Origin: Alistipes senegalensis
GTDB taxonomy: Bacteria > Pseudomonadota > Gammaproteobacteria > Burkholderiales > Burkholderiaceae_D
Direction: 5' to 3'
NCBI GenBank assembly: GCA_023664945.1
Contig: JAMPER010000001.1
Span: forward strand, 339,451 to 403,450
Length of the DNA: 64,000 nucleotides
The notes beneath the pieces are model-generated. The model did not search any database. It worked only from the letters and a program-made list of their open reading frames with translations, and was not told where the DNA came from. Of the stretch, positions 28,763 to 33,293 are shown one piece after another (positions within the stretch are counted from its first letter, which is position 1; each line of letters begins with the position of its first letter). The position numbers and the translations under genes were made by a program.

Positions 28763-29547
28763 CGGCAATACAGATGGTTTCAACGCCGGAGGTGGCGGAA
28801 AATATCGCGACAGCGCGCAGGCTGGTGACAGAGGCGGCACAGCAGGGGGCCGAACTGGTGTTGCTGCCGGAATACTGGCCGAGTATCGGCCGGCGCGATG
28901 CGGAAAAACTGGAGCATGCCGAGCAGCCCGGGGCGGGGCCGATACAGGATTTTATGTCGGCTATTGCCGGGGAACTGGGCATTTGGCTGATTGGCGGCAC
29001 CCTGCCGCTGGCAGCGCCGGTGGAGAACAAGGTGTTGAATACCACGATGGTTTATGACCCGGCGGGCAAACAGGTTTCCCGTTATGACAAGATTCATCTT
29101 TTCAGTTTTGCTTCCGGCAAGGAAGCGTATGATGAATCTGCCTATATTTGCAGCGGGGACAAGGCGGTATCGTTTGAGGCGCCGTTTGGCCGTGTTGGCC
29201 TGACGGTTTGCTACGATTTGCGTTTCCCGGAGCTTTTCCGGGCTTTCGGGGAGTGCGCCCTGATTGTGGTGCCTGCCGCCTTTACCTATACGACAGGCAA
29301 GGTGCATTGGGAAATCCTGCTGCGCGCCCGTGCAATTGAGAACCAGTGTTATGTTCTGGCGGCTGCCCAGGGGGGGCGTCACCGGACGGGGCGGCGCACC
29401 TGGGGGCAGTCTATGCTGATTGACCCGTGGGGAGAAATCAAGGCGGTGCAAATGGAAGGGGAAGGGGTTGTGGCAGGCGAGATTGAACAGGGCGTGCTGG
29501 ATACGGTGCGGGAAAAACTGCCTGCATTAAAGCACCGGCGGCTGTAA
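28750..29547 (+). CDS. Carbon-nitrogen hydrolase (Nit1-like, possible deaminated glutathione amidase)
   Basis: The 265-residue nitrilase-superfamily enzyme keeps the catalytic triad Glu41 (LLPEYW), Lys114 (YDKIHLF) and Cys154 (LTVCYDLRFPELF). Its closest described relatives by pattern are Nit1/YbeM-type amidases that repair deaminated glutathione, which would fit a glutathione-making cell, but the substrate is inferred. It starts inside the end of yhdP with a ribosome-binding site (AAGGAGGAAA) in the yhdP coding sequence. Confidence 0.88.
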   Translation: MAKVAAIQMVSTPEVAENIATARRLVTEAAQQGAELVLLPEYWPSIGRRDAEKLEHAEQPGAGPIQDFMSAIAGELGIWLIGGTLPLAAPVENKVLNTTMVYDPAGKQVSRYDKIHLFSFASGKEAYDESAYICSGDKAVSFEAPFGRVGLTVCYDLRFPELFRAFGECALIVVPAAFTYTTGKVHWEILLRARAIENQCYVLAAAQGGRHRTGRRTWGQSMLIDPWGEIKAVQMEGEGVVAGEIEQGVLDTVREKLPALKHRRL

Positions 29548-29689
29548 GGCTGGCCTGGCGTTTCCTGTACCGGAAAGGTTGCCGGTTTGAGGCGGCGCAG
29601 GGCAGGTGTGCGCCTGCCAGCGCAACGGGAGGCAATCCGTTACAATCCCGTCTGATGACTGATGGTTTCTAAAATAGGACGATAGACAC

Positions 29690-31150
29690 ATGCCTGATAC
29701 GGAAAACCGGCGGCTGGCTACGGCACGCCGCATTCTTCTGACGCCAAACGGCCTGGATGACGCCCGGTTGATCCAGACGCTGGGGACGGTGTTTGCCCGC
29801 CAGGTGGATTATGCGGATCTGTATTTCCAGTTTACCAAGAACGAGAGCTGGAGCTTGGATGAGGGGATTGTCAAGACAGGCAGTTTTTCCATTGACCAGG
29901 GCGTTGGCGTCAGGGCAGTTTCCGGCGACAGGACGGCTTTTTCCTATTCGGACGAGATTTCCCTGCCTGCGCTTCTTTCGGCTGCCGAAACGACGCGTTC
30001 TATTGCCCGGCAGGGAGGGGGCAGCGTAAAGGCGGCGTCATCCCTTCACCGGGTGAGCGGCCATGATTTGTATCGGGATATTGACCCGATGCCATCAATC
30101 AGCGCTGCGCAGAAGGTGGCAATCCTTGAGCGGGTGGATAAGAAAGCGAGGGCGGCTGATCCCCGGATTGTGCAGGTGATGGCCGGGCTGGCCAGTGAAT
30201 ATGATGTGGTGCTGGTGGTGCGGAGCGATGGCGCGCTTGCGGCGGATATCCGGCCGCTGGTCCGCCTCTCTGTGACGGTGATTGCCGAACAGGATGGCCG
30301 CCGCGAGATGGGCTCAAGCGGCGGCGGCGGACGTTATGATTACGGCTATTTCACTGAAGCCCAGGTTGACCAGTATATTGACGAGGCGGTGCATGCAGCG
30401 CTGGTGAACCTGGATGCCCGCCCGGCCCCGGCGGGAACCATGACGGTGGTTGTCGGGCCGGGCTGGCCGGGGGTGCTGCTGCATGAGGCGGTGGGGCATG
30501 GCCTGGAGGGCGATTTCAACCGGAAAGGTTCCAGTGCATTTTCCGGTATGCTGGGAGAGCAGGTGGCTGCCCGGGGGATTACGGTGGTAGATGACGGCAC
30601 GATTGCCAACCGGCGGGGATCGCTCAATATGGATGATGAGGGCACACCGACGGAAAATACGGTGCTGATTGAAGACGGGATTTTAAAGGGCTATCTCCAG
30701 GACAGCCTGAATGCGCGCCTGATGAATATGCCGCTTACCGGAAACGCACGCAGGGAATCTTATGCGCATTTGCCGATGCCGCGCATGACCAATACGCTTA
30801 TGCTGGGCGGCAGGCATGAGCCCGGCGAAATTATTGAATCGGTCAAGCGTGGTATTTATGCGGTCAATTTCGGCGGCGGCCAGGTGGATATTACGAACGG
30901 CAAGTTTGTTTTTTCGGCCAGCGAGGCTTATCTGGTGGAAAACGGACGGATTGTCCATCCGGTGGTCGGGGCGACGCTGATCGGGAATGGCCCGGATATT
31001 TTGCGCCGTGTTTCCATGGTGGGCAACGATATGTGCCTGGATGCCGGGGTGGGGGTGTGCGGAAAGGATGGGCAAAGTGTGCCGGTTGGCGTGGGGCAGC
31101 CGACGCTTCGGATTGAGGAGGTGACGGTTGGGGGAACCGGCCGGGCGTAA
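29690..31150 (+). CDS. tldD: Metalloprotease TldD
   Basis: The 486-residue TldD subunit carries the metal site HEAVGH at about 265-270, unusual for its HExxxH form, in [15 protein letters not shown]. TldD pairs with TldE (PmbA) to degrade unfolded peptides and to mature small peptides such as microcin B17. tldE is not in this window. The 142-nt gap before it holds no gene; a TACAAT (29641-29646) there is followed 8 nt later by a five-codon ATG ORF that stops before tldD. Confidence 0.94.
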
Positions 31151-31179
31151 TGGCAAAGGCATATCCCCTGAAAATGCGT

Positions 31180-31185
31180 TATACT
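31180..31185 (+). promoter_or_regulatory. Candidate -10 element of the aroG leader
   Basis: TATACT matches the -10 consensus at five of six positions and would start transcription near 31192, about 16 nt before the leader-peptide ATG. No good -35 is visible at the normal distance. Confidence 0.4.
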
Positions 31186-31207
31186 ATGGCTAAATGATTA
31201 TTGAGCC

Positions 31208-31303
31208 ATGATGTTAACGATGCTGCGTTCTGCCTGCTTTTTCTTTTTTTACTTTAGCTATTCCAGCCCGTTGGCGGTGGAAGAGCGGTTGTTGTCCCGA
31301 TAA
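31208..31303 (+). CDS. Phe/Tyr-rich leader peptide of aroG
   Basis: A 31-codon frame opens with two ATGs (31208, 31211) and ends at TAA 31301-31303. Codons 11-18 (31238-31261) read Phe-Phe-Phe-Phe-Tyr-Phe-Ser-Tyr, so five Phe and two Tyr occur in eight codons. AroG catalyses the first step to exactly these amino acids. The frame is followed by an intrinsic terminator and can form competing hairpins, as expected of a ribosome-mediated attenuator. The ribosome-binding site is weak (TTGAG). The stop lies further downstream than in textbook leaders. Confidence 0.72.
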   Translation: MMLTMLRSACFFFFYFSYSSPLAVEERLLSR

Positions 31304-31356
31304 GAAAAACAGACCGATTTTCAGCAAACCGCCAGCGATGGCGGTTTTTTTGTTTT
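31263..31356 (+). terminator. Attenuator: terminator and antiterminator of aroG
   Basis: The terminator is AAACCGCC (31326-31333) and GGCGGTTT (31340-31347) with a six-base loop and a long T-run to 31356. An antiterminator is possible because GTTGGCGGT (31270-31278) can pair over 9 bp, one of them G-U, with ACCGCCAGC (31328-31336). A protector hairpin, CCAGCC (31263-31268) with GGC-gg-TGG (31273-31280), would hide that upstream strand. A ribosome stalled at the Phe/Tyr codons (31238-31261) would cover the protector arm and free the antiterminator. Confidence 0.75.
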
Positions 31357-31374
31357 TGAAAAAGGATACGGAAA

Positions 31375-32451
31375 ATGTTGCACAACACGGATGACTTACG
31401 AATTCTTGCCATGAAGGAATTGACGCCGGCTTCCCACCTGATCCGCGAATTTCCCTGTACGGAAAGGGTTGCCAGGACGGTGGCAGATTGCCGGACGGCG
31501 CTGCATCGCATTTTGCACCGGAAGGACGACCGCCTGATTGTCATTATCGGCCCCTGTTCCATCCATGACCCGCAGGCGGCGCTGGAATATGCCTACCGTT
31601 TGAAGGAGGTGCGCGAGCGGCTGAACAAGCAGCTGGAGATTGTGATGCGGGTTTATTTTGAAAAGCCCCGTACGACGGTTGGCTGGAAGGGATTGATCAA
31701 TGATCCCCACATGGATCACAGTTTCGAGATTAACGAGGGGCTGCACATGGCCAGGGAACTGCTTTTGAATATCAATGACCTGGGTGTGCCGGCGGCAACC
31801 GAGTTTCTGGATACGATCAGCCCGCAGTATGTGGCCGATATGATCAGCTGGGGGGCGATCGGCGCACGGACGACAGAATCGCAGGTACACCGGGAATTGT
31901 CTTCCGGGCTGTCTTGCCCGGTGGGGTTCAAGAACGGGACGGACGGCAATATCAAGATTGCGATTGATGCGATCAAGGCGGCTTCCCATCCCCACCATTT
32001 CCTCTCGGTGACCAAGGGGGGGCATACCGCTATTTTCTCGACCTCGGGCAATGACGATTGCCATATTATTTTGCGGGGCGGCACCCGCCCGAATTATGAC
32101 CGGAGCAGTGTTGAGGCAGCCTGCCGAGAGGTGGCCGAGGCCGGTTTGCCGCCGCGTGTCATGATTGATGCTTCCCATGGCAACAGTTCGAAAAAGGCGG
32201 AAAACCAGGTGCCGGTTTGCGCGACGATTGGCCGGAGTGTGGCGGCAGGCGATGTGCGGATTATCGGGGTGATGGTGGAATCGCATCTTGTTGCCGGGCG
32301 GCAGGATATTGTGCCGGGGCAGCCGCTGACTTACGGCCAGTCTGTCACGGATGCCTGCATTGGCTGGGATGACAGTGTGATGGTTCTGGAGCGGCTTGCG
32401 GACGCTTCGGCAAAACGCCAGGAAAAGATACGGTACAGTAACGTGGACTGA
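31375..32451 (+). CDS. aroG: 3-deoxy-7-phosphoheptulonate (DAHP) synthase, type I
   Basis: The 358-residue AroG/F/H-type enzyme joins phosphoenolpyruvate and erythrose-4-phosphate, the entry to aromatic amino acid synthesis. Family blocks include IIGPCSIHDPQAALEYA (about 58-74), YFEKPRTTVGWKGLINDP, GARTTESQVHRELSSGLS and MIDASHGNSSK. The paralogue type (Phe-, Tyr- or Trp-inhibited) cannot be read by eye, but the Phe/Tyr-rich leader argues for control by those two. The gene follows the attenuator by about 20 nt, with AAAGGATACGG as ribosome-binding site. Confidence 0.95.
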   Translation: MLHNTDDLRILAMKELTPASHLIREFPCTERVARTVADCRTALHRILHRKDDRLIVIIGPCSIHDPQAALEYAYRLKEVRERLNKQLEIVMRVYFEKPRTTVGWKGLINDPHMDHSFEINEGLHMARELLLNINDLGVPAATEFLDTISPQYVADMISWGAIGARTTESQVHRELSSGLSCPVGFKNGTDGNIKIAIDAIKAASHPHHFLSVTKGGHTAIFSTSGNDDCHIILRGGTRPNYDRSSVEAACREVAEAGLPPRVMIDASHGNSSKKAENQVPVCATIGRSVAAGDVRIIGVMVESHLVAGRQDIVPGQPLTYGQSVTDACIGWDDSVMVLERLADASAKRQEKIRYSNVD

Positions 32452-32468
32452 CGGGCAGGGCTTTGGCC

Positions 32469-33293
32469 CTACCGTATCCTGGCAGTAGCTTCAATCCGGT
32501 CCAGGATGGCGGTAACGGCGCGGTCTATGCCCTGGCCGGGGCGGTAATCGGCGGCGGTAAAAAGGGTGGCGCGCCCTTCGCTGACAAGTTGCCGGGCGTG
32601 GTCTTTTGCGCCGGTTTTTTCCGGATGATAGACGGCAATGGCGTGCCCGCCCTGTTCCTTGACCAGCCTCATGCAGGGGATATCGGTTTCCCCGTCCCCG
32701 ATGAAGATCATGTTTTCAAAGGGGACCGGCCGCTCGTTCATTGGCACGAATTTGTTGATGACCGAGTTGTCATGCACATCCAGGGTGCCTTTGTTGATGC
32801 GGAAAAGGTATTGGGTTTTGGTGGTGTAGTTGACGGCCAGCGCCGGCCAGCAGGCAATGTTGTTGTGGTCAAACATGAAGGCGGAAGCATACACTTTCCG
32901 GAATTCATGGTAGATCGGGGTGGCTTCCAGCATTTCCCGGATGCCGGACGAGATGATGAAGTGCTCAAGCCGGATGCCTTTTTCCTGTGCGTACCGGTTG
33001 ATGTGCCCGAACCATTTTTCGACGCCGGGGAAAAACCGGATTTGTTTGCCGAAATCGTGGAAGTCTGATTTCCTGACAGGAATATCCTTTTTGTCGGCGG
33101 CCCGTATCATGAGCCACATGTAGGCCAGGATGGTATCCATCTGGTGGGTTCTGGCCAGTTCGCCGGCTTCGGCCCAGAAGTCTTTCGGGGAGATATCCAG
33201 CTTGGGGATGAAGTCGTATTCCTGCATGTTGCCGGGCGACAATGTGCCGTCGAAGTCATAGGCGATGGCGACAGGAATGGGGGCGCTTTTCAT
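32469..33293 (-). CDS. HAD-family phosphatase of unknown substrate
   Basis: The 274-residue protein has the HAD motifs: nucleophile and acid/base Asp13 and Asp15 in YDFDGTLSP, motif II serine in FIISSGI (about 112-118), and motif IV IGDGETDIPC in the C-terminal third. An alpha-helical cap lies between motifs I and II, as in the phosphoserine-phosphatase-like group. No neighbour suggests a substrate: aroG converges on it 17 nt away and yajQ lies upstream on the same strand. Confidence 0.8.
   Translation of the reverse strand: MKSAPIPVAIAYDFDGTLSPGNMQEYDFIPKLDISPKDFWAEAGELARTHQMDTILAYMWLMIRAADKKDIPVRKSDFHDFGKQIRFFPGVEKWFGHINRYAQEKGIRLEHFIISSGIREMLEATPIYHEFRKVYASAFMFDHNNIACWPALAVNYTTKTQYLFRINKGTLDVHDNSVINKFVPMNERPVPFENMIFIGDGETDIPCMRLVKEQGGHAIAVYHPEKTGAKDHARQLVSEGRATLFTAADYRPGQGIDRAVTAILDRIEATARIR

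Follow-up and report, generated by a model that had tools for sequence, protein, structure and literature searches.

Among the closest described counterparts of the locus studied here is one from Corynebacterium glutamicum, in which, as summarised in PMC11802643 and PMC11525245, the aroR-aroF leader with the residues Phe-Tyr-Phe stands before the DAHP synthase operon, and stalling raises transcription under Phe limitation (Neshat et al. 2014). By the same descriptions, our locus resembles aroR-aroF in placing an aromatic leader peptide before a DAHP synthase gene, but aroR-aroF is actinobacterial, has a shorter aromatic run and is reported to be indifferent to Tyr availability (PMC11802643, PMC11525245). 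In E. coli, according to the account in PMC11802643, pheA (with pheL) and pheST likewise have a Phe-rich leader and attenuation by charged tRNA-Phe, although the target genes differ. Attenuation has also been hypothesised for E. coli aroF, as mentioned in PMC8632094, the source that presents the uORFC-13-1 motif of Acholeplasma, i.e., a predicted uORF, carrying one or more Phe codons, which together with a terminator precedes the aromatic-synthesis gene aroF (24 representatives); likened to the aroG leader by its description there, this motif differs in belonging to another phylum and in being predicted only. Table 7 of PMC1173090 (the Merino database) lists a predicted attenuator at the Vibrio DAHP synthase gene (aroA-I-alpha-Y) with tyrA, and another in the betaproteobacterium Bordetella parapertussis, in the pheA/tyrA operon; as given in that table, the latter precedes gyrA > serC > aroQ-pheA > tyrA and others, not a DAHP synthase gene. 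The accessible portions of PMC2965389, PMC5343134, PMC3766115 and PMC1262725 contain no betaproteobacterial aroG leader. No attenuator of betaproteobacterial aroG was found in the open-licence papers searched, in agreement with the preliminary description of this DNA, which knew of none for a betaproteobacterial DAHP synthase; such an attenuator thus appears to be undescribed, while the type of mechanism is already known, with DAHP synthase genes of other phyla among the known or predicted cases. The name aroG in PMC1173090 seems to denote another gene.

The window (the whole stretch of 64,000 nucleotides that was analysed) holds the features collected in Table 1. The gene upstream of the leader encodes TldD, and the product encoded downstream belongs to the NCBIfam AroG equivalog, which places the target gene in the pathway of the amino acids that would be sensed. 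The window's own genome has one AroG-type match, and AroG is 99% identical in the relative G007. We consider it highly probable that the Phe/Tyr leader before aroG is a ribosome-mediated transcription attenuator, as had been proposed from the window alone and as conservation and a model-based fold scan both support. This reading is based on the parts themselves, on predicted folds that exclude one another, on where the control codons sit and on conservation; translation, stalling, termination and the response to amino acids are inferred.

Table 1. Features of the aroG leader region, in window coordinates.
Feature	Position	Strand	Remark
Probable promoter, -10-like TATACT at 31180-31185, weak -35	31150..31192	+	weak; score 8 of 12
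Leader peptide ORF MLRSACFFFFYFSYSSPLAVEERLLSR	31220..31303	+	predicted; longer in-frame start 31208 also possible
Control codons FFFFYFSY, putative stall site when charged tRNA-Phe or tRNA-Tyr is short	31238..31261	+	
Arm 1, protector 5' side, weak alone	31258..31269	+	
Arm 2, antiterminator 5' side, inside the ORF; its 5' part is the protector 3' side	31270..31293	+	
Antiterminator 3' side, ends in arm 3	31308..31336	+	
Arm 3, intrinsic terminator 5' side	31326..31334	+	
Arm 4 (31339-31347) and terminator T-run	31339..31356	+	
aroG, DAHP synthase (3-deoxy-7-phosphoheptulonate), controlled gene	31375..32451	+	NF006723 579.8 bits, cut-off 568; TIGR00034

Upstream regions of 340 nt each were collected for 85 aroG-type matches from 100 relatives; CCGCC...GGCGG was present in 63 and absent from 22, the misses including distant members, paralogues and one locus cut at a contig end (L055). 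We kept 61 leaders, dropping L060 and L069, which have no aromatic run, and built from them the model R1. Of the 195 genomes sampled from the family (completeness at least 90), all with an AroG-type match, 192 contain a match to R1 at E <= 1e-5; the misses are G024, G046 and G481, with G046 being the contig-end case (L055). The genera of the named matches suggest that the family sampled is Oxalobacteraceae, since those among the matches listed include Oxalobacter, Massilia, Janthinobacterium, Duganella, Herminiimonas, Undibacterium, Noviherbaspirillum, Oxalicibacterium and others. In the order sample, R1 matches 73 of 300 genomes (E <= 1e-4), under 14 family labels, and in 72 the match spans the whole model. 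In the class sample the figure is 40 of 369 (E <= 0.01), only seven of which, own genome included, combine E <= 1e-7 with the full model; these seven include two family labels (f54 and f59) outside the order. Against the refutation that the preliminary description set for itself, loss of the Phe/Tyr run or of the terminator in close relatives, the element is kept in the 192 family genomes; aroG of G008, from the nearest genus, the window's own, has neither leader nor terminator (L008). Together with L022 and L052 this makes three family members examined whose aroG is without the attenuator; in L022 and L052, neither a leader nor a terminator separates tldD from aroG, and these two are likely secondary losses.

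A pattern search returned at least 120 stretches, from which 80 were taken as named loci among the matches listed. In 79 of these 80 named matches listed, aroG follows downstream on the same strand within about 240 nt, the exception being L114, whose contig breaks off 64 nt past the start of the match; a terminator pattern is present in 78 (not in L114 or L142), and an ATG-started leader peptide is readable in 79 (not in L165). By comparison, only 36 of the 80 have tldD within 900 nt on the upstream side, and the element therefore travels with aroG. These counts bear on the reading that the hairpin is a mere tldD terminator and the short ORF a product of chance, a reading to which the window lends some colour in that the terminator follows tldD, whose end is at 31150, on the same strand. 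The imbalance between the neighbours, the joint conservation of the Phe/Tyr run and arm 2 with the terminator and, weakly, the promoter-like sequences before the leader in relatives all argue against it, and we accord it hardly any probability. In one genome, G542, two copies of the element with aroG lie far apart on a single contig (G542:C1:1358-1495 and G542:C1:5544804-5544942), possibly through assembly overlap at the ends of that contig.

The 31-codon ORF with FFFFYFSY of the preliminary description is present, with the run and the stop where it had put them (31208 to 31303, reading MMLTMLRSACFFFFYFSYSSPLAVEERLLSR, with the stop at 31301-31303), but the ATG at 31220, which gives 27 codons, is the more likely start as judged from the spacing in relatives. 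Among the named matches listed, 79 relatives have a readable ATG, and in 77 of these the nearest one in frame precedes the anchor Phe codon by 11 or 12 codons; in the window the distance is 11 codons for 31220 and 15 for 31208. Over the eight-codon run of 105 distinct leaders, Phe makes up 51% and Tyr 20% of 840 residues, encoded by TTT (348), TTC (84), TAC (108) and TAT (63). The pattern through which many of these 105 leaders were chosen prescribes the last TTT and parts of arms 1 and 2, so that conservation there is conditioned on the selection; with the anchor (last) codon set aside, Phe accounts for about 44% and Tyr for 23% of 735 residues. Two leaders that were not selected by pattern (L039 and L046) have a spacing off by one base and are in a different frame after the Phe run, yet retain GGCGGTGGAG, which argues that the distal part of the leader is conserved as RNA rather than as peptide.

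Could the ORF instead encode a functional small (membrane) protein, with the structure downstream being a separate terminator? That the distal frame differs in some lineages with the RNA kept, that stop positions vary, and that distant leaders have the aromatic run in common and little else make this very unlikely, even though this hydrophobic peptide is conserved across the family, and even though the leader peptide peTrpL of S. meliloti is reported to be active in trans (PMC7298713). A second role in trans is possible for the leader peptide of an attenuator.

The terminator lies where the preliminary description had put an 8-bp stem with a T-run, but its stem has nine pairs (31326-31334 with 31339-31347), followed by TTTTTTTGTTTT. 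At -14.2 kcal/mol (z -3.91) it was equalled by 0 of 200 shuffles, and a simple scan gave three terminator-like sites in the kilobase vs 1.3 expected. The 9-bp antiterminator suggested before (31270-31278 with 31328-31336) is likewise present, but the full antiterminator is more than twice as long, continuing with 31280-31284/31318-31322 and 31286-31293/31308-31316; the stretch that contains it (31268-31336) has a predicted folding energy of -24.0 kcal/mol (z -3.40), which 1 of 200 shuffles equalled, and a longer stretch (31258-31336) has a z of -2.32 (7 of 200). Antiterminator and terminator are mutually exclusive in the predicted folds, the terminator 5' arm being common to both. The spacer within the antiterminator folds only mildly better than shuffled sequence, with a mean z of -1.2 and values below -1 in 36 of 61 leaders (single-base shuffles).

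The protector hairpin had been proposed as well; taken alone in the window (31258-31285) it does not stand out from shuffles (z -0.09; equalled by 83 of 200), but its pairs are kept in relatives. In alignment A1, 84.4% of the protector cells pair, with a covariation of 0.200 vs 0.159 shuffled (0/500 shuffles as high), and for the terminator 98.3% of cells pair and 0/500 shuffles reach the covariation score. Covarying stems, for which the preliminary description had proposed to look, are thus seen for protector and terminator but not for the antiterminator as a whole: 61.4% of its cells pair in A1 and its covariation is not above that of shuffles (98/500 as high), because hardly any variation occurs in the core helix, which is 86% paired, and the middle of the structure is poorly aligned. 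At the core flank, arm 2 carries C in 13 of 20 leaders with G in arm 3, vs 19 of 109 with A in arm 3, and of 147 distinct leaders only 61 have flank bases that pair between the two arms; this count, from which shared descent was not removed, took 168 leaders, dropped 3 and merged 18 duplicates. RNAalifold on A1 found the terminator alone; a single consensus cannot display both folds.

The end of the terminator stem (31347) lies 27 bases from the aroG start codon (31375), a distance at which control might act mainly on translation, or through an RNA that binds a ligand, instead of by transcription attenuation with a leader peptide. We hold this to be extremely improbable in view of the T-run after the stem, the aromatic codons at the switch point, and a search over 29000-33000 that gave no Rfam riboswitch or T-box family at E <= 5. 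Rfam Phe_leader (RF01859) reaches 29.9 bits in the window, where the gathering score is 55, and a relaxed search brought 0 of 21 genomes over the threshold; since that search gives many similar-scoring matches elsewhere, the sub-threshold Phe_leader match is only suggestive. RNAI (RF00106) also overlaps the element, at 27.2 bits and below its threshold of 47, and was taken as a chance match.

In the fold scan, a model ribosome with a 12-nt footprint was moved along each of 60 leaders and the free RNA was folded; besides L060 and L069, dropped earlier, L034 was left out for its misread frame. In the window, with the A-site at codons 11-17 of the 31-codon ORF, the antiterminator had a probability of 1.0 when arm 3 emerges and of 0.77-0.99 in the full transcript, at codons 18-19 it was permitted in the truncated transcript only, and from codon 20 on it stood at 0 and the terminator at 0.99. 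Equilibrium folding did not separate the two states cleanly throughout: ribosomes at codons 2-5 gave the terminator in the full transcript. Without a ribosome, arm 2 paired with arm 3 in the truncated transcript (probability 0.91), while the terminator was favoured (0.99) in the full transcript when the RNA from 31220 onward was left free. Over all 60 leaders, 397 of 431 Phe/Tyr codons were permissive for the antiterminator, compared with 304 among the 1028 remaining codons. Footprints of 9 and 15 nt left 382 and 367 of the 431 permissive. The last permissive codon was exactly the last Phe/Tyr codon in 39 of 60 leaders with the 12-nt footprint, and a footprint of 9 or 15 nt shifts it by one codon.

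A ribosome at the stop codon was permissive in none of the 60 leaders, which points to masking of arm 2 by the translating ribosome. The stop codon beyond the antiterminator arm, singled out in the preliminary description as a departure from the textbook, is real, and as it falls 0-38 nt past the end of the arm-2 core in 60 leaders, it is a trait of the group; the leu and ilv leaders also have ORFs that run past the control codons. Refolding of the protector behind the ribosome, invoked earlier on account of this stop, may help, but it is the weakest part of the scheme, the ribosome itself being predicted to mask arm 2.

The attenuator would work in the following way. The leader transcript would start between tldD and the leader ORF, and a ribosome would translate the Phe/Tyr-rich peptide as RNA polymerase makes the leader. 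Under a shortage of charged tRNA-Phe or tRNA-Tyr, the ribosome would stall at codons 31238-31261 and cover arm 1, upon which arm 2 would pair with the stretch ending in arm 3, no terminator would form and aroG would be transcribed. When the tRNAs are charged, the ribosome would pass through arm 2 to the stop inside the antiterminator and so mask arm 2, which behind the ribosome may also pair with arm 1; arm 3 would be left to pair with arm 4, and transcription would end near 31350.

Distant leaders were inspected at 27 loci (L231-L251 and L094-L099), made up of 21 of the 30 listed in the order sample, the other nine being family loci with the window's included, and six from the class. An aromatic-rich leader ORF and a terminator precede aroG in all 27, and the arm-2 pattern was not found in one of them (L247). 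A Trp codon stands within the aromatic run in 16 of the 27, which suggests that such leaders may sense all three aromatic amino acids. Among the weak R1 matches, two full-length ones of the eight in the own genome (L089 and L090) and, from the 33 weaker class genomes, L100, L101 and L102 were inspected on both strands, and aroG follows none of them. Near L089, L101 and L102 there are chance sORFs in which 4-6 of 8 residues are aromatic, so that an aromatic run alone is weak evidence.

A simple scan of the window kilobase gave no promoter. In relatives, the best promoter-like pair before the leader ATG scores on average 8.5 of 12 vs 7.4 in shuffled sequence (60 of 61 leaders scored), with scores of at least 9 in 25 of 60 leaders vs 11% of shuffles, and often consists of TTGCCA or TTGTCA with CACTAT, TATAGT or TACAAT. 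A recurrent CTTGCCAA ... CACTATT or TATAGT was seen before the leader ORF, e.g., in L010-L047, and is less clear in the window. With regard to other regulators, TIGR04381 (listed as HTH_TypR), which we take to be the TyrR helix-turn-helix domain, was matched in 1 of 60 genomes, 36 of the 60 being in the family, and among 14 controls in E. coli alone. The sole match among these 60 relatives is G032:C40:7744-7881, and G032 belongs to the family and is 86% complete. In the own genome, no sORF with at least four Phe or Tyr in eight codons was found at pheA or pheS over about 190 nt upstream and the first part of the frame (positions 1001-1600 of L260 and L261).

Taken jointly, and with somewhat less than even confidence, we would read these observations as an old attenuator that replaces regulation of aroG by a TyrR-type protein across much of the order and in some other families of the class, with several lineages sensing all three aromatic amino acids, and with a leader ORF that spans the antiterminator arm, so that the translating ribosome itself promotes termination. 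The element is in any case a candidate regulator of aroG with a mechanism at the level of codons, present in 192 of 195 sampled family genomes, and it makes up a well-populated RNA group that Rfam Phe_leader, the one related family, does not reach at its threshold; the natural losses in L022 and L052 make a comparison possible. AroG catalyses the step with which the aromatic amino acid pathway begins, and with such an attenuator before its gene, Oxalobacter and its relatives very probably make aromatic amino acids mainly under shortage.
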